Made by a program: the position numbers and the translations under genes. Positions 54,215 to 63,607 of a stretch of 64,000 nt of DNA are shown here, one piece after another; the first letter of the stretch is position 1; each line of letters starts with the position of its first letter. The stretch is from the NCBI GenBank assembly GCA_017792345.1, contig CP051228.1:2170001-2234000 (forward strand), in the 5' to 3' direction. The stretch is from Mesoflavibacter sp. Lineage in GTDB: Bacteria > Pseudomonadota > Alphaproteobacteria > UBA8366 > Aestuariispiraceae. The notes beneath the pieces were generated by a model. It ran no database searches. It was not told where the DNA came from and saw only the letters and a list, made by a program, of their open reading frames with translations.

Positions 54215-54625
54215 GTGACCGATACGACGGTCAAAACCATCGCAGACCTGACCCGTGAGTTCGGCGTGACGGCCCGGACCATTCGCTTCTATGAGGCGGA
54301 GGGCATGCTGTCGCCGGAACGGGCGGGGACGCAGCGCCTCTATCATCCGCGCGACCGCGTGCGCCTGAAGCTGATCCTGCGCGGCAAGCGCCTCGGCTTC
54401 TCCCTCGCCGAAATCCGCGAGATCATCGATCTCTATGACAGCGCGCCCGGCGAAGTCGCGCAGCTTCATCACTTCCTGGACAAGATCGCGGAACGCCGCG
54501 CTGATCTGGCGCAGAAACAGCGCGATATCGAGGTTACAATGAAGGAGCTGCAGCAGGTCGAGGAAAGCTGCCGGTCGCGCCTGTCCGAACTGGCACCCCG
54601 CGACGGCCGGGAGGCGGCGGAATGA
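54215..54625 (+). CDS. liuR: MerR family transcriptional regulator (LiuR-like)
   Basis: 136-residue DNA-binding regulator. The winged helix-turn-helix is at the start: TIADLTREFGVTARTIRFYEAEGMLSPERAGTQRLYHPRDRVRLKLILRGKRLGFSLAEIREIIDLYD, then a coiled-coil dimerisation helix (AQLHHFLDKIAERRADLAQKQRDIEVTMKELQQVEESCRSRL). It has no metal-binding cysteine pair, so it is not a metal sensor; in this family acyl-CoA pathway genes are the usual targets. GTG start with AAGGGGAGAG upstream. It overlaps the next gene by 4 bases, and its operator lies just upstream. The symbol is by similarity and context. Confidence 0.82.
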   Translation: MTDTTVKTIADLTREFGVTARTIRFYEAEGMLSPERAGTQRLYHPRDRVRLKLILRGKRLGFSLAEIREIIDLYDSAPGEVAQLHHFLDKIAERRADLAQKQRDIEVTMKELQQVEESCRSRLSELAPRDGREAAE

Positions 54626-55077
54626 ACGATTTTCACGAAGATCCGGTCATGGCGCGCGGCACGGTCTATCCGGAGCATTGCGACCATATGGGGCATATGA
54701 ATGTCGCGGCCTATACGAAGAAATTCGACGAAGCGACATGGTCGCTTTGGGTCACCGTCGGGTTCAGCCACAAGGCGATGAATGCCGAAGAGACAGGTCT
54801 GGCGGCCTTGGAGAGCAACTTCACCTACCGGCGCGAATTGTTTCCGGGGGATACCTATATCGTCCGATCCCGGTTCCTGAAATTGCGCGACCGGACCGCG
54901 ACCTTCCATCACCGCATGTATGTTCTGGACGGGGAAGAGGAAGCACTGGCGGCGACCTGTACCTATACCGCCGCGTGCCTGGACCGGGCCGCCCATAAGG
55001 CACGGCCGTTTCCTGACGCGGTGGCAGGCAAAATCCGGACGCAGTTGAAACCCCTTGCAGAGGAGGCGTCGCAATGA
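54622..55077 (+). CDS. Acyl-CoA thioesterase, hotdog fold (4-hydroxybenzoyl-CoA thioesterase type)
   Basis: 151-residue cytoplasmic thioesterase. The start RGTVYPEHCDHMGHMNVAAYTKKFDEATWSL carries the Asp/His-rich hotdog active-site loop (CDHMGHMN), followed by ESNFTYRRELFPGDTYIVRSRFLKLRDRTATFHHRMY. The length suits a single domain. The stop overlaps the start of the next gene, another hotdog thioesterase. Substrate is unknown; release of an acyl-CoA that blocks the pathway is a common role for such genes (inference). Confidence 0.82.
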   Translation: MNDFHEDPVMARGTVYPEHCDHMGHMNVAAYTKKFDEATWSLWVTVGFSHKAMNAEETGLAALESNFTYRRELFPGDTYIVRSRFLKLRDRTATFHHRMYVLDGEEEALAATCTYTAACLDRAAHKARPFPDAVAGKIRTQLKPLAEEASQ

Positions 55078-55532
55078 CCACGCCCCAGCCTCGCAATCCG
55101 GACTATGCCGCCCGCGTGCGCGACAGTTTCGGGCGTCAGGCCTTCATGGCGACGATCGGCGCCGAACTGACGGACGTCGCGCCGGGCCATGTCGAAATGC
55201 GCCTGCCCTATCGCCCGGAACTGGGCCAGCAGCACGGCTTTTTCCATGGCGGTGTCATCGGCACCTTGGCCGACAATGCCGGCGGTTACGCCGCCTTCAC
55301 GCTGATGTCACCGGAAGATTCAATCCTGACGGTCGAATACAAGATGAACATCGTCTCGCCCGGCCGGGGCGACGCGCTGGTCGCGGTCGGCACGGTGTTG
55401 AAGCCGGGCCGGACACTGACCGTCTGCGAGGTGAAGGTTTACGCGGAAATGGCGGGCGAGCGGAAACTCTGCGCCACCGCGATTTGCACCCTGATGACCA
55501 TGAAAGACATGTCGGACGACAAGGCCGAGTGA
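55074..55532 (+). CDS. PaaI-type acyl-CoA thioesterase, hotdog fold
   Basis: 152-residue thioesterase of the PaaI/YdiI kind. The key motif is QQHGFFHGGVIGTLADNAGGYAAFT (HGG with the following catalytic Asp), preceded by APGHVEMRLPYRPELG and followed by TVEYKMNIVSPGRGDALVAVG. Translationally coupled to the preceding thioesterase by an ATGA overlap and placed 27 bases before the isovaleryl-CoA dehydrogenase gene. The two thioesterases are only distantly alike, so they are probably not a recent duplication. Confidence 0.85.
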   Translation: MTTPQPRNPDYAARVRDSFGRQAFMATIGAELTDVAPGHVEMRLPYRPELGQQHGFFHGGVIGTLADNAGGYAAFTLMSPEDSILTVEYKMNIVSPGRGDALVAVGTVLKPGRTLTVCEVKVYAEMAGERKLCATAICTLMTMKDMSDDKAE

Positions 55533-55559: not shown

Positions 55560-56732
55560 ATGATCCCCAACAGCTACCCCAGTCTCGACTTCGACCTCGG
55601 CGAAACCGTCGAGATGCTGCGCGACAGCGTAAAGACCTTCTCGTCCGATGAGATCGCGCCGCGCGCGGCGGAGATCGACCGGACCGACCAGTTCCCGATG
55701 GATCTGTGGAAGAAGATGGGCGACCTGGGCGTGCTGGGCATCACGGTCGAGGAGGAATATGGCGGCGCGGGCATGGGCTATCTGGAACATGCCATTGCGA
55801 TGCAGGAAATCAGCCGCGCCTCGGCCTCGGTCGGGCTCAGCTACGGCGCGCATTCCAATCTCTGCGTGAACCAGATCCGCCGCAACGGCACGGCCGACCA
55901 GAAGCAGCGCTATCTGCCGAAGCTGATTTCCGGCGACCATGTCGGGGCGCTGGCCATGTCCGAACCGGGCGCCGGGTCCGATGTCGTGTCGATGAAGCTG
56001 CGCGCGGACAAGAAGGGCGACCGCTATATTCTGAACGGCAGCAAGATGTGGATCACCAACGGCCCGGATGCCGATACGATGGTGATCTATGCCAAGACCG
56101 ACGCCGATGCCGGGCCGAAAGGCATCACTGCTTTCCTGGTGGAGAAAGGCTTCAAGGGATTCTCCGTCGCCCAGAAGCTCGACAAGCTGGGCATGCGCGG
56201 GTCGCATACCGGCGAGCTGGTCTTCGACAATTGCGAAGTGCCGGAAGAAAACGTCCTGGGTGAGGTCAACAAGGGCGTCCGCGTCCTGATGAGCGGCCTG
56301 GATTACGAACGCGCGGTCCTGGCCGCCGGGCCGGTCGGCATCATGGATGCCTGCATGGACATCGTGATCCCCTATATCCACGAGCGGAAACAGTTCGGCC
56401 AGTCGATCGGCGAATTCCAGCTGATGCAGGGCAAGATCGCCGACATGTATACGACGATGAACGCGACCAAGGCCTATGTCTATGCCGTCGCCAAGGCTTG
56501 CGATCGCGGCCAGACGACCCGCAAGGACGCCGCCGGTGCGATCCTCTATGCCGGGGAAAAGGCGACCTGGATGGCGCTGGAGGCGATCCAGGTGCTGGGC
56601 GGCATGGGCTATATCAACGAAAGCCCGACCGGCCGCCTGCTGCGCGACGCGAAGCTTTACGAAATCGGCGCCGGCACGTCGGAGATCCGCCGCATGCTGA
56701 TCGGCCGCGAACTGTTCAACGAGACGGCCTGA
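55560..56732 (+). CDS. ivd: Isovaleryl-CoA dehydrogenase
   Basis: 390-residue flavoprotein that oxidises isovaleryl-CoA to 3-methylcrotonyl-CoA in leucine breakdown and passes electrons to ETF. Besides the general family motifs ([42 protein letters not shown]) it has [25 protein letters not shown]: the glutamate in LDYERA is the catalytic base at the position special to isovaleryl-CoA dehydrogenases. The C-terminal segment [19 protein letters not shown] has Gly where other acyl-CoA dehydrogenases have the catalytic Glu. Length is normal. Methylcrotonyl-CoA carboxylase genes are not in the window. Confidence 0.93.
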
Positions 56733-56837: not shown

Positions 56838-58028
56838 ATGACCACGCACGATCCCATCGTTATCGTCGGTGCCGCCCGCACGCCCATGGGCGGCTTCCAG
56901 GGTGAGTTGAAGGACATGACCGCTGCCGAGCTGGGATCCGCCGCCATCGCGGCCGCGCTGGGCCGCGCCGGTGTGCCCGCCGGCGATGTCGAGGAACTGA
57001 TCTTCGGCAATGTCCTGCCCGCCGGTCAGGGCCAGGCCCCGGCGCGTCAGGCCAGCAAGGGCGCGGGCATTCCCGACGCGACCGGCTGTACGACGATCAA
57101 CAAGATGTGCGGATCGGGCATGAAGGCGACCATGCTGGCGCATGATCTGCTGAAGGCCGGGACCGCCGATATCATGGTGTCGGGCGGCATGGAGAGCATG
57201 ACCAACGCGCCCTATCTGCTGCCCAAGGCGCGCGGCGGGATGCGGCTGGGCCATGGCCAGGTCGTCGACCACATGTTCATGGACGGGTTGGAAGACGCCT
57301 ATGAACGCGGCCGCCTGATGGGGACCTTCGCGGAGGAGACCGCAACCCATTACCAATTCACCCGCGAGGCGCAGGACGCGTTCGCCATCGAAAGCCTGAC
57401 CCGCGCCCAAAAGGCACAGCAGGACGGTACCTTTGCGGAGGAGATCGCGCCGGTCACGGTCAAGACCCGCAAAGGCGAGGTCGAGGTGGCGTTGGACGAA
57501 CAGCCGCGCACCGCCAATCCGGCCAAGATCCCGACCCTGAAACCGGCCTTTGCGAAGGACGGCACGGTGACGCCCGCTAATTCCTCGTCGATTTCCGACG
57601 GGGCGGCGGCGCTGGTGCTGATGCGCCTGTCGGAAGCGGAAAGGCGCGGCCTGGCCCCGATTGCCGAGATCGTGTCACACGCGACCCACGCTCAGGCTCC
57701 GGCCTGGTTCACCACCGCACCCGTCGACGCCATGCGCAAATGCCTGGACAAGGCGGGCTGGGACGCGAAATCGGTCGATCTGTTCGAGGTCAATGAGGCC
57801 TTCGCCGTCGTCACAATGGCGGCGATGCACGACCTGGATCTGCCGCATGACAAGGTCAATGTGCATGGCGGGGCCTGCGCGCTGGGCCATCCGATCGGCG
57901 CGTCGGGGGCGAGAATTCTCGTCACCCTCCTTAACGCGCTGAGGAAATATGATATGGAGACGGGCGTCGCGTCGCTGTGTATCGGCGGCGGAGAGGCGAC
58001 GGCCATGGCCGTGAAGCGGATTCACTGA
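56838..58028 (+). CDS. Acetyl-CoA C-acyltransferase (thiolase)
   Basis: 396-residue biosynthetic-type thiolase joining or cleaving acetyl-CoA units. Nucleophilic Cys91 is in TTINKMCGSGMKAT, His in GGACALGHPIGASGARI and the second catalytic Cys in SLCIGGGEATA. Length is standard. It could be the acetoacetyl-CoA thiolase (AtoB/PhaA) that finishes leucine or acyl-CoA breakdown in this cluster, but the chain-length preference cannot be read. It follows ivd after 105 bases that contain the extragenic palindrome, and GGAG precedes the ATG. Confidence 0.92.
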   Translation: MTTHDPIVIVGAARTPMGGFQGELKDMTAAELGSAAIAAALGRAGVPAGDVEELIFGNVLPAGQGQAPARQASKGAGIPDATGCTTINKMCGSGMKATMLAHDLLKAGTADIMVSGGMESMTNAPYLLPKARGGMRLGHGQVVDHMFMDGLEDAYERGRLMGTFAEETATHYQFTREAQDAFAIESLTRAQKAQQDGTFAEEIAPVTVKTRKGEVEVALDEQPRTANPAKIPTLKPAFAKDGTVTPANSSSISDGAAALVLMRLSEAERRGLAPIAEIVSHATHAQAPAWFTTAPVDAMRKCLDKAGWDAKSVDLFEVNEAFAVVTMAAMHDLDLPHDKVNVHGGACALGHPIGASGARILVTLLNALRKYDMETGVASLCIGGGEATAMAVKRIH

Positions 58029-58047: not shown

Positions 58048-58710
58048 ATGCCCTCAATCCTGATCACCGGCGCCAATCGCGGCATCGGCAAACGTTTGGC
58101 GGAACTGTATGACGCGGATGGTTGGACCGTCATTGCGGCCAGCCGCGATCCGGCAAATTGCAACGCGCCGGGCGAGAAGATCGCCCTGGACGTGACCGAC
58201 GATACCAGCGTCGCGGCGGCGGCTGAAGCGCTGTCGGGCCGCCCGATCGATGTTCTTTGGAACAATGCCGGCGTCTATCTGGACAAGAACGTGCCGCTGG
58301 ACCGGTTGGATCTGGACAAGTGGGAAGAGACGTTCCGCGTCAACACGATCGGCCCGATGCGTCTGGTGCGGGCGCTGATGGACAATGTCGCTCGGTCGGA
58401 CCGGAAGACGCTGGCCTTCACGACCAGCAAGATGGGGTCGATCTCGCTTCTGTCCAGCGGCGCTTACGCGTATCGTTCGTCCAAGACCGCGCTTAACATG
58501 GCGGTCGCGGTGCTGACCAAGGATGTCGCGCCGCAGGGCATCAAGACCGTGCTGTTGCATCCGGGCTGGGTCCGGACCGACATGGGCGGCGGCGGCGCCG
58601 ATATCGACACCGATGCGTCGGCGGCCGGCATGAAGTCGGTCGTGGACGCGCATGACATGGCCCAATCGGGCAAGTTCCTGAATTTTGACGGCAGGGAGTT
58701 TTCCTGGTGA
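58048..58710 (+). CDS. Short-chain dehydrogenase/reductase (C-factor-like)
   Basis: 220-residue SDR. The cofactor motif TGANRGIGKRLAELYDADG is at residues 7–25, the NNAG motif is at LWNNAGVYLD, and the active-site YRSSK (Tyr and Lys) is in SGAYAYRSSKTALNMAV. The compact form and the C-terminal HPGWVRTDMGGGGADIDTDASAAGM are like C-factor/sniffer-type SDRs. Substrate is unknown. It starts 19 bases after the thiolase, and its stop overlaps the start of the carbonic anhydrase gene (GTGA). Confidence 0.87.
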   Translation: MPSILITGANRGIGKRLAELYDADGWTVIAASRDPANCNAPGEKIALDVTDDTSVAAAAEALSGRPIDVLWNNAGVYLDKNVPLDRLDLDKWEETFRVNTIGPMRLVRALMDNVARSDRKTLAFTTSKMGSISLLSSGAYAYRSSKTALNMAVAVLTKDVAPQGIKTVLLHPGWVRTDMGGGGADIDTDASAAGMKSVVDAHDMAQSGKFLNFDGREFSW

Positions 58711-59360
58711 TTCCGATTAATCGACTGCTCGCGGGCTATCGCAGCTACAAGGCGCTCTATCACGAAAAACGCGCGGAACTGACCCAGCGTCTGGCCGACG
58801 AAGGACAGCGTCCGGCGATTCTGGTGATTGCCTGTTCCGACAGTCGCGTCGATCCGGCCATCCTGTTCAACGCCGATCCGGGCGAAATTTTCGTTGTGCG
58901 CAATGTCGCGGCACTGGTCCCGCCCTATGAGCCGGACGGCAGCCATCACGGTACGTCATCGGCCATCGAATACGCCGTCAAGGACTTGAAGGTCGAAGAG
59001 ATCATCGTTCTGGGCCACCATAAATGCGGCGGCATCCAGGCCATGCGCTCCATCGTGTCGGGCGAGGTGGAAGACAATCACGAATTCGTCGGCACCTGGA
59101 TGAATCTGGCGCGGGACGCCTGCACGCTGCATGGCGCGGACGACCCGAATTCCGGTGCGTCGGTCGAAATGGCGACGATCAAACTGTCGGTGAAGAACCT
59201 GAAATCCTTCCCCTGGATCCAATCCCGGATCGACGAAGGGAAGCTGCGGGTGCACGGCTGGTGGTTCGATATCTCCAATGGCGAACTGTACGGCCACGAC
59301 CCGCGTACCGGCCAATTCAGCGTGGTGGAAAAACTGGCGCCGGTCGGCGCGTCGGAATAA
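58707..59360 (+). CDS. Beta-class carbonic anhydrase
   Basis: 217-residue zinc enzyme that interconverts CO2 and bicarbonate. Zinc ligands and the Asp-Arg dyad are seen: Cys43, Asp45 and Arg47 in ACSDSRVDP, His104 and Cys107 in GHHKCGG. Length is normal. It begins at GTG 58707, overlapping the SDR stop by 4 bases, so it is made together with acyl-CoA enzymes. A supply of bicarbonate to biotin carboxylases (such as PccAB or a methylcrotonyl-CoA carboxylase elsewhere) would explain this place, but that is inferred. Confidence 0.93.
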   Translation: MIPINRLLAGYRSYKALYHEKRAELTQRLADEGQRPAILVIACSDSRVDPAILFNADPGEIFVVRNVAALVPPYEPDGSHHGTSSAIEYAVKDLKVEEIIVLGHHKCGGIQAMRSIVSGEVEDNHEFVGTWMNLARDACTLHGADDPNSGASVEMATIKLSVKNLKSFPWIQSRIDEGKLRVHGWWFDISNGELYGHDPRTGQFSVVEKLAPVGASE

Positions 59361-59378: not shown

Positions 59379-60512
59379 ATGATCCTGAACGAAGAACAAC
59401 AGATGATCCGCGACATGGCGCGCCAGTTCGCGCAGGAACGTCTTGTTCCCAATGCGGAGGAATGGGATCGCGAGGCGCGTTTTCCGAAAGAGGCGCTGGA
59501 CGAGATGGCGCAGCTGGGCATGCTGGGCATGATGGTGCCGCCGGAATGGGACGGCGCCGGAACCGACTGCGTTTCCTATGCCATGGCACTGGAAGAGATC
59601 GCCGCCGGGGACGGCGCGGTCTCCGCCATCATGAGCGTCCATAACTCCGTCGGCTGCATGCCGATCCTGCGCTACGGCACCGAGGAGCAGAAGGAAAAAT
59701 ACCTGAAGCCTTTCGCGCGCGGCGAAATGATCGGCTGTTTCTGCCTGACCGAGCCGCAGGCCGGGTCGGACGCGTCGGCGCTGAAAACCACCGCACGGCG
59801 TGACGGCAACAAATGGGTGATCGACGGCGCCAAGCAGTTCATCACCAATGGCTCGTCGGCTGGGCTGGCCATCGTCTTCGCGGTGACCGATCCGGATGCG
59901 GGTAAGCGCGGGATTTCCGCCTTCCTGGTGCCGACCGACAGCGACGGTTACATCGTCGAACGGGTCGAGAAGAAGATGGGCCTGAACGCGTCCGATACCT
60001 GTGCCCTGCGCTTCGAAGGGGTCGAGGTGACGCCGGACATGATACTGGGCGAGGAAGGCCAGGGCTATAAGATCGCCCTGTCGAACCTGGAAGGCGGCCG
60101 GATCGGAATCGCGGCCCAGGCGCTGGGCATCGCCCAGGCGGCGCTGAACTATGCCGTCGAATACGCCAAGGACCGCACCTCGATGGGGCAGCCGATCATG
60201 AACCACCAGGCGGTCGGCTTCCGGCTGGCCGATGGTGCGGCGAAGCTGCAGGCGGCCCGGCAGTTGATCCTGCATGCCGCCGCGATGAAGGATGCCGGCA
60301 TCCCCTGCCTGACCGAGGCGTCGATGGCAAAACTGTTCGCGACGGAAACGGCGGAAACGGTCGTGTCCGACGCGCTGCAGACCTTCGGCGGTTATGGCTA
60401 TATGAAGGACTATCCGCTGGAACGCCTGGCCCGTGACGTGCGCGTGACCAAGATCTACGAAGGTACCAGCGATATTCAGCGCATGCTGATCGCCCGGTCC
60501 CTCGCTGCTTAA
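59379..60512 (+). CDS. Acyl-CoA dehydrogenase
   Basis: 377-residue FAD enzyme of the short/branched-chain type. Motifs: FCLTEPQAGSDASALKTTARRDG, IDGAKQFITNGSSAGLAIVFAVTD, LSNLEGGRIGIAAQALGIAQAALNYA, and at the end KIYEGTSDIQRMLIARSL with the catalytic Glu in YEGTS, unlike the isovaleryl-CoA dehydrogenase in the same cluster. Isobutyryl-CoA, 2-methylbutyryl-CoA or butyryl-CoA are the likely substrate types; the sequence does not decide. It lies 18 bases after the carbonic anhydrase gene. Confidence 0.92.
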   Translation: MILNEEQQMIRDMARQFAQERLVPNAEEWDREARFPKEALDEMAQLGMLGMMVPPEWDGAGTDCVSYAMALEEIAAGDGAVSAIMSVHNSVGCMPILRYGTEEQKEKYLKPFARGEMIGCFCLTEPQAGSDASALKTTARRDGNKWVIDGAKQFITNGSSAGLAIVFAVTDPDAGKRGISAFLVPTDSDGYIVERVEKKMGLNASDTCALRFEGVEVTPDMILGEEGQGYKIALSNLEGGRIGIAAQALGIAQAALNYAVEYAKDRTSMGQPIMNHQAVGFRLADGAAKLQAARQLILHAAAMKDAGIPCLTEASMAKLFATETAETVVSDALQTFGGYGYMKDYPLERLARDVRVTKIYEGTSDIQRMLIARSLAA

Positions 60513-60525
60513 CCGGGGCGGGGCG

Positions 60526-61263
60526 ATGGGTATCCTGGACGGCAAGGTGATCTTGATCACCAAGGTGACGGAATTCGTTGGCGCGGCCGTGGTCGACAGC
60601 TGCCTGGCTGAAGGCGCCGTCGTCGTCGCCCAGGATGCGTCCTTTGCGGATACCGCCGAACAGACCCGCTTCGAAAGCGCCCATCCCGGTGTCATCGCGC
60701 TGGGTGTCGGGGATTTCGAAACCGCCGTGTCCGACGTGATCGCCGGGCAGGGGCGGATCGACGGTCTGGTTCCAAATGACGGGTTCCCGGCAATCCGCGC
60801 CAAGGTCGAAGACGCCAAACCGGAAGACATGCGCGCCGGTCTGGACGCGATGGTCGTCGAGCCGTTCCGCCTGATCGGCGCCGTGGTGCCGCATATGAAG
60901 GAACAAGGTGGCGGGCGGATCGTGCTGGCGACCTCGGCGGTGCCGTATCGCGGGCTGTCGAATTACGGCATGTATGTCACCGGGCGCGGGGCCCAGAACG
61001 CGATGGTCCTGACCCTGGCGCGCGAATTGGCGAAGACCGGCATCACCGTCAACGCCGTCGCCCCGAATTTCGTCGAAAACCCGTCCTATTTTTCCGAGGC
61101 GTTGTTGAGCGACGAGGACGCCAAGGCCAAGATCCTGTCGCAGATTCCGATGGGCCGCTTCGGCAAGCCGCAGGAAATTTCGGACCTGATTGCCTTCCTG
61201 CTGTCGGACAAGGCGGGTTTCACCACCGGCCACGTCGTCCCGGCGGCCGGCGGCTGGGCCTAA
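60526..61263 (+). CDS. Halohydrin dehalogenase-like SDR-fold protein
   Basis: 245-residue protein with an SDR fold but without normal SDR motifs. In place of TGxxxGxG it has T12-x4-F17-x-G19 (TKVTEFVG), and in place of the Ser-Tyr-Lys triad it has Ser137-x12-Tyr150-x3-Arg154. These are the two signatures of halohydrin (haloalcohol) dehalogenases, which close vicinal haloalcohols to epoxides without NAD(P). DASFADTAEQTRFESAHPG, the PND segment and PNFVENPSYF also recall the HheA sequence as I remember it. Enzyme activity is inferred. It sits between an acyl-CoA dehydrogenase and a DsbA-fold isomerase, with 13- and 10-base gaps. Confidence 0.75.
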   Translation: MGILDGKVILITKVTEFVGAAVVDSCLAEGAVVVAQDASFADTAEQTRFESAHPGVIALGVGDFETAVSDVIAGQGRIDGLVPNDGFPAIRAKVEDAKPEDMRAGLDAMVVEPFRLIGAVVPHMKEQGGGRIVLATSAVPYRGLSNYGMYVTGRGAQNAMVLTLARELAKTGITVNAVAPNFVENPSYFSEALLSDEDAKAKILSQIPMGRFGKPQEISDLIAFLLSDKAGFTTGHVVPAAGGWA

Positions 61264-61273
61264 GGGGGTTCCG

Positions 61274-61876
61274 ATGACCGGTGCGATCGACTTCTATTTC
61301 GAATTCTCCTCCCCATTCGGCTATATCGCGGCGGAACGCATCGGGGCGTTTGCGGCGAAACATGACCGTACCGTCAACTGGAAGCCGTTCCTGCTGGGCG
61401 CGGCCTTCAAGCGGGAAGGCACGCAGTCGCTCGTTTCCTATCCGATGAAAGGGCCGTATTCGCGCCGGGACATTGAACGCTCCGCTGCCTTCTACGGCAT
61501 TCCCTTTCAATGGCCGCCGGAGTTTCCGGTCTTCACGGTGACGGCCGCACGGGCAACCCTGTGGACGCAGGAACAGGCACCGGAAAAAGCGGTCTCCCTG
61601 ATCCTCGCGATCTACCGAAAGGCTTTCGCGGAAGGCGCCGATATCGGGCAGGCGGACGCCGTCCTGGCCGCGGCGCAGTCTGTAGGGCTGGGCCGGGATG
61701 CCGTCGCCGCCGGTATGGCATCCCCGGATATCAAGGCCCGCCTTAAGGACGAGAACGAGGCGGCGCTGGACCGCGGTGTCTTCGGATCGCCGTTTTTCAT
61801 CGTCGACGGAGAGCCGTTCTGGGGCGTCGACCGGATGGACATCATGGACGCCTGGATCACGCGGGGCGGCTGGTAG
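61274..61876 (+). CDS. 2-hydroxychromene-2-carboxylate isomerase/DsbA-like (GST kappa family) protein
   Basis: 200-residue thioredoxin-fold protein. It starts MTGAIDFYFEFSSPFGYIAAERIGAFAAKHDRTVNWKPFLLGAAFK, where the FSSPFGY stretch carries the catalytic serine of HCCA isomerases in the place of the DsbA CxxC, and ends with ALDRGVFGSPFFIVDGEPFWGVDRMDIM, the cis-proline region. Homologues use glutathione, in naphthalene breakdown or in unknown reactions. The ATG at 61274 is preceded by GGGGG; the frame is open earlier within the previous gene. The true substrate is unknown. Confidence 0.85.
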   Translation: MTGAIDFYFEFSSPFGYIAAERIGAFAAKHDRTVNWKPFLLGAAFKREGTQSLVSYPMKGPYSRRDIERSAAFYGIPFQWPPEFPVFTVTAARATLWTQEQAPEKAVSLILAIYRKAFAEGADIGQADAVLAAAQSVGLGRDAVAAGMASPDIKARLKDENEAALDRGVFGSPFFIVDGEPFWGVDRMDIMDAWITRGGW

Positions 61877-61881
61877 GCGTC

Positions 61882-62841
61882 ATGTCGGATCGCGGTGTTT
61901 CCTTCGTTGTGCCGGTCTATAACAAGGCGGACTGGCTTCCGGCGGTGATCGACCGGATCGCCGCCCAGCGGGGCGATTTCGACCGGCAATTCGTCTTTGT
62001 CGATGACGGGTCGACCGATGACTCGCTGGAAATCGTCCGGCGGAAGACCGACGGTTGGAAGAACGTCGTCATCGAAAGTCAGGCCAATGCCGGTTCCGCC
62101 GCCGCGACCAATCGCGGCATCGCGCTGGCCTCCATGCCCTATGTGAAGTTCGTTGACGCCGACGATCTGCTGCACGCGGATGCGACACAGGTTCTGCTGG
62201 ATGCGCTGCAGGGCGATGACCGGGCCTGTCTGGCATTCGGCGGGTACAGCCTGTTCCGGGATCAGGCGGATCTCGATCTGGACGGGGTGCTGGGGCGTCC
62301 GGCGATGCGCCGCCATGTGCGCCCGCTGCGCGCCGCGATCTCCCGGTCGCTGTTCAATCCGACCCAGTTCCTTGCCCGCACCGATGCGCTGCGCGCCGTC
62401 GGGGGGTGCGACGAGCGGGTCGTGTTCAGTCAGGAATATGCCTTGACCATGCGCCTTGCCCGGCAATGGGACTTCCTTGAACTCGACGCCGTGATCGCCT
62501 ATTGGCCGGAGGTCGTGGGGGCGCGGCTGTCGAACAATCAGGGACGCCAGTTGCAGCGGGTCACCCGGGCGGTTCAACTGTTCCTGGAGGACTATCCCGA
62601 CACGCCCTGGTCGCTGCGTCAGTATATATCCCGGCGTATGGCCTATCGCGCCTGGAAGTATCATCGCCGGGCGAACCGGGCCTACTGGCCGACCAGCCCG
62701 GTGTTCTGGCGTCAGGCAATGGCGTGGCTGCCGATCCTTGGCGGGCATGCGGCCTTCGTCGAACGTTGCGGCAAGGTGTATGAATCGGCGGAGATCAGCG
62801 CCGTCACAAGCGGGAACGAGGGGCGGGTTCATGGGCAGTAG
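61882..62841 (+). CDS. Family 2 glycosyltransferase
   Basis: 319-residue GT-A fold glycosyltransferase. Nucleotide-sugar binding starts at VSFVVPVYNKADWLPAVIDRIAAQ, then FVFVDDGSTDDSLEIV and the metal-binding DxD as KFVDADDLLHAD. The later SQEYALTMRLARQWDFLELD is the usual acceptor/catalytic region. No membrane helix is evident. It begins 5 bases after the isomerase gene and overlaps the methyltransferase gene by 11 bases. It probably opens a cell-surface polysaccharide or lipopolysaccharide cluster that goes on beyond the window. Confidence 0.88.
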   Translation: MSDRGVSFVVPVYNKADWLPAVIDRIAAQRGDFDRQFVFVDDGSTDDSLEIVRRKTDGWKNVVIESQANAGSAAATNRGIALASMPYVKFVDADDLLHADATQVLLDALQGDDRACLAFGGYSLFRDQADLDLDGVLGRPAMRRHVRPLRAAISRSLFNPTQFLARTDALRAVGGCDERVVFSQEYALTMRLARQWDFLELDAVIAYWPEVVGARLSNNQGRQLQRVTRAVQLFLEDYPDTPWSLRQYISRRMAYRAWKYHRRANRAYWPTSPVFWRQAMAWLPILGGHAAFVERCGKVYESAEISAVTSGNEGRVHGQ

Positions 62842-63607
62842 CGATTACAATCCGGGCTATGACCACGGCTTTTATGCCGATCTGGAAAACACCGCCCTGC
62901 CGTCGGCGCGCAAAATCGTGCCCATGCTGCGCGACTGGTTCCCGATCCAAAGCGCTGTCGACGCCGGATGCGGAGACGGCTCCTGGCTGTCGGTCATTCT
63001 GGAAACCGGTGCGGACCGCGTTCTGGGGCTGGACGGTCCCTGGGTCGACGCCGCGCAGCTGAAAATTCCGCAGGACAGTTTCCGTCGTTGCCGGATCGAC
63101 GAGAAGATCGAGGCCGATCCCGCCGACCGGTTCAACCTGGCGGTCAGCCTGGAAGTCGCCGAACACCTGCCGCCCGCCCGGGCCGCCGGTTTCGTTTCGG
63201 AACTCTGCGCGCTGGCTCCGGTGGTCCTGTTTTCCGCCGCGATTCCGGGGCAGGGCGGACACCACCACGTCAACGAACAATGGCCGGAATACTGGGCCGA
63301 CCTGTTCGCCGCGCAAGGCTACCGGCCGGTGGACACCTTGCGCCTGTCGGTCTGGAACGATCCGTCGGTGTGCTGGTGGTACAAGCAGAACCTGATGCTG
63401 TTCGCATCGGATGCGGCGCTGACCGGCAATCCGAAACTGAAGGCGGAAGCCGACCGGACGCAGATCCCGCCGGTGCCGCTGGTTCATCCCGAAGTGTTCG
63501 GGCAGATGCAGCGCCTGGCCTTCCCGTCCTTCGGGCGCTGGTTGAAGCAGGGCCGCAAGGCCTTCGCGCGGTCCGCCGCGAAACGCAAAGCGAAGCGGGG
63601 GCGCTGA
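62831..63607 (+). CDS. Class I SAM-dependent methyltransferase
   Basis: 258-residue methyltransferase. The SAM-binding motif I is SAVDAGCGDGSWLSVILETGADRVLGLDGPWVD (about residues 39–71), and a later LAVSLEVAEHLPPARAAGFVSELCALAPVVLFSAAIPGQGGHHHVNEQWPEYWADLFAAQGY stretch is typical of methyltransferases of surface-sugar clusters. The C-terminus is strongly basic (RKAFARSAAKRKAKRGR). The ATG at 62831 lies inside the end of the glycosyltransferase gene. The acceptor is unknown. Confidence 0.86.
   Translation: MGSSDYNPGYDHGFYADLENTALPSARKIVPMLRDWFPIQSAVDAGCGDGSWLSVILETGADRVLGLDGPWVDAAQLKIPQDSFRRCRIDEKIEADPADRFNLAVSLEVAEHLPPARAAGFVSELCALAPVVLFSAAIPGQGGHHHVNEQWPEYWADLFAAQGYRPVDTLRLSVWNDPSVCWWYKQNLMLFASDAALTGNPKLKAEADRTQIPPVPLVHPEVFGQMQRLAFPSFGRWLKQGRKAFARSAAKRKAKRGR

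Follow-up and report, generated by a model that had tools for sequence, protein, structure and literature searches.

A predicted halohydrin dehalogenase of the HheA/HheC branch is an accessory gene in the liu operon of an alphaproteobacterial family

Introduction

Halohydrin dehalogenases (HHDHs) are defined in print by two motifs, T-x4-F/Y-x-G and S-x12-Y-x3-R, as given in passages of PMC4989007 and PMC11976700, and the mechanism of one member, HheC, is described in a part of the former. According to passages of PMC11976700, the gene of HheC shares an operon with that of an epoxide hydrolase, and the substrates tested are probably not the natural ones of this enzyme. Of the HHDH genes known at the time, passages of PMC4989007 place only two together with an epoxide hydrolase in one operon, and they leave room for other physiological functions, and a part of PMC11536340 names detoxification and degradation of haloalcohols as the presumed natural function. 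Among the listed titles and abstract openings of open-access papers, none was seen to describe a liu (leucine/isovalerate catabolic) operon with an HHDH in it, and we found no open-access paper that pairs “halohydrin dehalogenase” with “isovaleryl-CoA dehydrogenase.”

Here, we describe a gene within a window of 64,000 nucleotides (the whole stretch of DNA that was analyzed) whose product appears to be a further member of this known enzyme family, in a setting that is apparently undescribed. An earlier note, made from the letters of the window, had proposed an HHDH-type enzyme; we follow up this proposal by placing the protein within its family, by describing the operon around its gene, and by comparing both with relatives.

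Results

The gene at 60526..61263 on the forward strand runs from an ATG to a TAA and encodes a protein of 245 amino acids, in which both HHDH motifs can be read. Motif 1, T12-K-V-T-E-F17-V-G19 (residues 12 to 19, TKVTEFVG; 60559..60582, forward strand), fits T-x4-F/Y-x-G and stands in place of the glycine-rich NAD(P) motif of SDRs, and motif 2, S137-x12-Y150-x3-R154 (SAVPYRGLSNYGMYVTGR; 60934..60987, forward strand), fits S-x12-Y-x3-R in place of S-x12-Y-x3-K. Both replacements are present as the earlier note had read them. The ordinary-SDR signature, T-G-x3-G-x-G together with the Ser-Tyr-Lys triad, is broken at F17 and R154. A third segment, P180-N181-F182-V183 ... Y188-F189 (61063..61092, forward strand), aligns to the halide-site loop of HheC; position 181 is Asn in 43 of 47 HHDH-like rows versus Gly, from the P-G motif of SDRs, in all nine ordinary SDRs. 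We take Asn-for-Gly in the anion pocket loop to be an HHDH trait, and presumably the position of N181 is the one that takes part in halide binding in HheC.

The six signature residues are kept in 9/9 rows of alignment A1 (query included) and, with F, Y, or W allowed at the aromatic position, in 38 of the 47 HHDH-like rows, the nine rows without the full set all being genome derived. In the host genome, 34 places match the window protein at E<=1e-3; among the 27 of these inspected by sequence, S-x12-Y-x3-R occurs in the window gene only and one place (L004) shows the loose motif 1 pattern alone, so that the occurrence of the motif goes beyond chance.

A maximum-likelihood tree separates the 47 HHDH-like rows from the nine ordinary SDRs (seven from the host genome and two from one plasmid) with support of 100/100. 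Its references are HheA, HheB, HheC, HheD2, and 6a41 only, with types E, F, and G as well as HheA3 and HheA5 left out, and neither the partial homologues L190 to L192 (because of their length) nor L011/G013 are included. The window protein shares a branch (support 96/96) with HheA, HheC, and 6a41, and HheB and HheD2, the latter being the name given to 7b73 in a part of PMC9629495, form a separate branch (100/99). Inside the A/C branch, a group supported at 98/92 unites the window protein with one copy of its own genus, those of two Kiloniellales MAGs, and two of another genus in the family. In terms of the published A to G scheme, the protein is placed in the joint A/C branch, the inner forks of which are mostly weak in this tree without HheA3 and HheA5. 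The check by phylogeny that had been suggested along with the HHDH proposal thus leaves the protein outside the ordinary SDRs, with respect to the references named.

Sequence matches in the PDB are led by the 6a41 “dehalogenase” (228 bits), followed by HheA entries (131 and 129 bits) and HheD2 (104 bits); the first FabG (95 bits) ranks ahead of HheC (about 90 bits). An AlphaFold model of one chain of what would, as an HHDH, be a homotetramer was built with nine homologues and has a mean pLDDT of 85.3 and a pTM of 0.86. Its top Foldseek match is again 6a41 (TM 0.90, 47% identity) and its second is a FabG, and since HheA, HheC, and the best FabG-type SDR all stand equal at a TM of about 0.87, the fold alone does not discriminate between them, while the tree does.

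Two other identities have to be weighed against that of an HHDH. An ordinary NAD(P)-dependent SDR carrying the motifs by chance would have the same fold, and Pfam and NCBIfam indeed place the protein only as a generic SDR, under the curated cut-off of all 25 NCBIfam families listed; against this stand the tree, the lost glycine motif, and the changes of Lys to Arg and of PG to PN, and on tree and residues we reject an identity that we consider hardly credible. A protein of HHDH descent that has shifted to another epoxide or alcohol reaction, or to a noncatalytic role, would be in keeping with a branch that drifts, the catalytic Tyr being lost in L167, L188, and L189 and the Arg in L185_1, L186_1, and L187_1; however, no signature residue is lost in any of the nine A1 rows, that of the window protein included, and we think such a shift improbable here. 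The motifs, the tree, and the nearest solved structure all support the type named in the earlier note, and we regard the window protein with good confidence as an HHDH of the HheA/HheC branch, its catalysis being predicted from sequence.

The dehalogenase gene is part of a cluster of genes on the forward strand, headed by a MerR-family regulator (54215..54625; Pfam MerR_1), which by its position may be LiuR-like. This is followed by two hotdog proteins, one thioesterase-like (54622..55077; Pfam 4HBT_2) and one PaaI-like thioesterase (55074..55532; TIGR00369 over cut-off), and by isovaleryl-CoA dehydrogenase, LiuA (55560..56732), which reaches 670 bits to the solved 4o5m and 4kto versus 326 for the best other acyl-CoA dehydrogenase. 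Next come an acetyl-CoA acyltransferase (thiolase; 56838..58028; TIGR01930 over cut-off), an ordinary SDR with a TGANRGIG motif (58048..58710; Pfam adh_short), a beta carbonic anhydrase (58707..59360; Pfam Pro_CA), and a second acyl-CoA dehydrogenase (59379..60512; by Pfam, and 515 bits to the acyl-CoA dehydrogenase 4u83), which ends 13 nt before the dehalogenase gene. Ten nucleotides after the latter begins the gene of a DsbA-fold HCCA isomerase/GST-kappa-like protein (61274..61876; Pfam DSBA; 163 bits to 3fz5, a possible 2-hydroxychromene-2-carboxylate isomerase). A glycosyltransferase-2-like gene (61882..62841; family assigned by sight, order conserved in relatives) and a methyltransferase-like gene (by sight) follow, and past the window end, on the same strand, lie genes for an asparagine-synthase-like amidotransferase, a 535-amino-acid carboxyltransferase, a crotonase, and a biotin carboxylase. 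The last three are putatively LiuB, LiuC, and LiuD, names that we assign from gene order and what we take to be general knowledge of such operons, the carboxylase subunits having generic NCBIfam matches only.

With isovaleryl-CoA dehydrogenase and the downstream carboxyltransferase, crotonase, and biotin carboxylase, the cluster is a liu operon. The neighbors that the earlier note had listed, namely two acyl-CoA dehydrogenases, a thiolase, and a GST-kappa-like protein, are all present by Pfam, TIGR, or PDB matches. From spacing and strand, the dehalogenase gene is probably cotranscribed with the operon. The beta carbonic anhydrase, which precedes the second acyl-CoA dehydrogenase here and follows it in G004 and G006, may supply bicarbonate to methylcrotonyl-CoA carboxylase. 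The stretch from 61882 to 63607 of the window and on to the amidotransferase gene (L197) places glycosyltransferase-, methyltransferase-, and amidotransferase-like genes between the GST-kappa gene and liuB, and the glycosyltransferase-like and amidotransferase genes are seen at the same place of the liu operon in G038, which belongs to another family of the order.

Among relatives, 6 of the 14 family genomes searched have an HHDH match at E<=1e-50, and the make-up of their operons was read from tblastn. In five of these (G000, G012, G013, G007, and G008, from two genera, with L011 of Pacificispira spongiicola as the case of G013) the gene is flanked by those of the second acyl-CoA dehydrogenase and the GST-kappa-like protein, and the sixth (G005) has it outside the liu operon. 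In three genomes of the same genus (G009, G010, and G011) the flanking genes are direct neighbors, 19 to 23 nt apart, without a dehalogenase, and they are likewise adjacent in G001 and G002. A carbonic anhydrase gene occupies the site of the HHDH in G004 and G006, and in G003 the second acyl-CoA dehydrogenase lies outside the operon. The GST-kappa gene is present with or without the dehalogenase. Since the liu operon exists without the dehalogenase in relatives, the latter is an accessory of this operon.

When the presence of the gene in the operon is mapped on a tree built from the operon proteins of 13 genomes (without G005, which has its HHDH outside the operon), no fewer than two changes are required: either the gene was gained twice at one site, or it was gained once and lost twice. 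Its common site would favor the latter. The gene is intact and under purifying selection between the window's genome (G000) and G012 (dN/dS 0.058), and between G007 and G008 of the second genus the ratio is 0.253 for the HHDH and also higher, at 0.148, for a neighbor gene. Its GC content of 0.648 and GC3 of 0.833 are like those of the neighbor genes. As composition matches the neighbors and the setting is common to two genera, we reject a recently acquired xenobiotic island; no mobile-element genes were recognized by eye in the list of open reading frames between 50 and 64 kb of the window.

We also considered a unit formed by the HHDH gene and the downstream glycosyltransferase-like and amidotransferase genes, which had been favored by the presence of the glycosyltransferase gene in 6/7 genomes with an HHDH versus 0/8 others (15 searched). 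This unit is rejected, as the glycosyltransferase gene occurs in 0/26 other HHDH genomes searched, and it is also contradicted by G038, whose liu operon has both downstream genes and no dehalogenase, its HHDH being on another contig and its second acyl-CoA dehydrogenase also elsewhere. Our reading is that the glycosyltransferase-like and amidotransferase genes are an older part of the operon.

Beyond the family, a search with the nine-row alignment at a threshold of E<=1e-50 finds a close homologue in 42 alphaproteobacterial genomes, one of them the window's own, out of 385 sampled, a frequency that speaks against the rarity ascribed to the enzyme type in the earlier note. In a sample of the phylum, 2 of 398 genomes match, namely that of the window and the alphaproteobacterium G108, which is no proof of restriction to the class, the classes of this sample being seen only in part. 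With the single protein as query, 7 of 43 genomes of the order match. The motif 2 string is found in all of the best 30 loci of the alignment search, and weaker matches include copies without the catalytic Tyr or Arg. Within the best 30, motif 1 has Trp at the aromatic position in L109 to L111, and its Thr is replaced by Ser in L115 and L129, as read by column from the longer versions of these loci, L172 and L179; natural variants at this Thr position have been reported only recently, according to a part of PMC11976700.

When the 41 homologue loci besides the window were searched for operon markers, four liu-operon cases emerged (L011, L097, L099, and L100). No isovaleryl-CoA dehydrogenase operon was found at the other 37 loci, where several contigs are short or cut, so that this absence is a lower bound. 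Distant acyl-CoA-type genes occur at 5 of these 37, being a crotonase at L168 and L184, an acyl-CoA dehydrogenase (about 30% identical) at L178 and L186, and, at L194 and no closer than about 4 kb, a pair of carboxyltransferase and biotin carboxylase (34% and 48%); a distant DsbA-type gene (28%) adjoins L164, and the remaining 31 of the 37 show no operon marker. By eye, the neighborhoods elsewhere look unrelated among those listed. NIPSNAP-like neighbors are seen, by sight, at L101 and L179, too few to draw on. A 1,116-amino-acid open reading frame in G108 (L174) is rejected as a natural fusion, the part upstream of the gene being, by eye, a chance open frame.

Two tandem HHDH genes are present at L185, L186, and L187 (G247, G139, and G336), in alphaproteobacterial genomes of 1.6 to 2.3 Mb. 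One copy has the Tyr and Arg, and the other has Gln for Arg and no motif 1 aromatic, making a pair of active and inactive subunits possible. At L167, L188, and L189 (G189, G394, and G077), motif 1 (with Tyr as the aromatic), the Ser, and the Arg are kept, and the catalytic Tyr is replaced by Pro or Ala.

Discussion

By homology to HheC, the residues observed in the window protein suggest the following chemistry. S137 would hold the hydroxyl of a vicinal haloalcohol, and Y150, its pKa lowered by R154, would remove the proton from that hydroxyl, upon which the alkoxide would close to an epoxide and expel the halide. The halide would go to an anion pocket made of motif 1 (T12-F17-G19) and the P180-N181 loop, at the place where an SDR would hold NAD(P), and in the reverse direction epoxides would be opened with small anions. 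Such an enzyme is expected to be cofactor independent. No obvious partner that would take the epoxide product emerges from a search for EHN-type epoxide hydrolases: none is found in the five genomes with the HHDH in the operon, and among 13 family genomes searched only G002, which has no HHDH, carries one. Type II haloacid dehalogenases are over cut-off in 13/13 family genomes, with or without an HHDH; neither enzyme marks the carriers of the dehalogenase.

The gene appears to have been inserted into a preexisting liu operon of this alphaproteobacterial family, in which its product would act as an accessory enzyme of detoxification or scavenging and not as a step of leucine breakdown. Most likely, the cell uses the dehalogenase for protection or scavenging and expresses it alongside leucine catabolism. 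The detoxification part of this reading agrees with the presumed function given in PMC11536340, as far as its statement on haloalcohols goes.

The earlier note had seen in the acyl-CoA context a hint at a (halogenated) fatty- or branched-acid substrate. As a substrate hint the context is weak: the operon occurs without the HHDH in relatives, none of the 37 other loci examined shows the operon, and the GST-kappa gene is present with or without the HHDH. These same three observations tell against a dedicated role in which the substrates of the enzyme would be halohydrins or epoxides derived from branched C5 acids, with 3-methylcrotonyl units as an example source, and the GST-kappa-like protein would take the epoxide. 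Tight placement within the operon in five genomes of two genera and a constrained sequence speak for such a role, which we nevertheless judge unlikely. A bolder version would make the HHDH an integral member of branched-chain acid catabolism that is produced along with isovaleryl-CoA dehydrogenase and, where halide is plentiful, clears the halohydrins or epoxides arising from unsaturated C5 acids or the CoA esters of these; we judge it unlikely as well, and we assume that members of the family live in the sea. If it is true, A/C-type enzymes would gain a first class of natural substrates with no tie to man-made epichlorohydrin. At the other end, the gene may be a neutral passenger, coding for a generally useful detoxification enzyme whose location says nothing about its function, as the unrelated neighborhoods of the homologues listed would have it; yet its presence at the same site in two genera and its constrained sequence suggest that expression with the operon may be selected, and we hold this reading to be quite possible though short of an even chance. 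The evidence for a functional importance of the liu-operon setting is thin, and the setting is a weak hint, and no proof, of a natural role in leucine breakdown. Protection or scavenging alongside leucine catabolism remains our preferred reading. Being conserved and chromosomal, the operon offers a defined, deletable case for probing the native role of an HHDH, and the wider branch, spread over the alphaproteobacterial genomes counted above, holds many further candidate enzymes.

Among described systems, 6a41 (“Dehalogenation enzyme,” released 2019) is like the window protein in carrying all signature residues, yet it forms a separate lineage in the tree, and its near-identical copies in G320 and G397 (L173 and L196) are, unlike the window gene, not in a liu operon. 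HheA (4z9f and 1zmo) and HheC (1pwx) share the tree branch, the motifs, and the fold of the window protein but differ from it in sequence, at about 33% and 27% identity, respectively. On a Microbacterium plasmid, an HheA gene has an annotated epoxide hydrolase gene and IS transposases as neighbors, as expected of a xenobiotic pathway, whereas no epoxide hydrolase gene is seen adjoining the window gene. HheB (4zd6) and HheD2 (7b73) have Ser-Tyr-Arg in common with the window protein and stand apart from it by their branch.

With the classical liu operon, the cluster shares isovaleryl-CoA dehydrogenase, the MerR regulator, the carboxyltransferase, the crotonase, and the biotin carboxylase. Compared with this classical gene set, it is extended by the second acyl-CoA dehydrogenase, the SDR, the carbonic anhydrase, the GST-kappa-like protein, the glycosyltransferase, the amidotransferase, and the dehalogenase itself.
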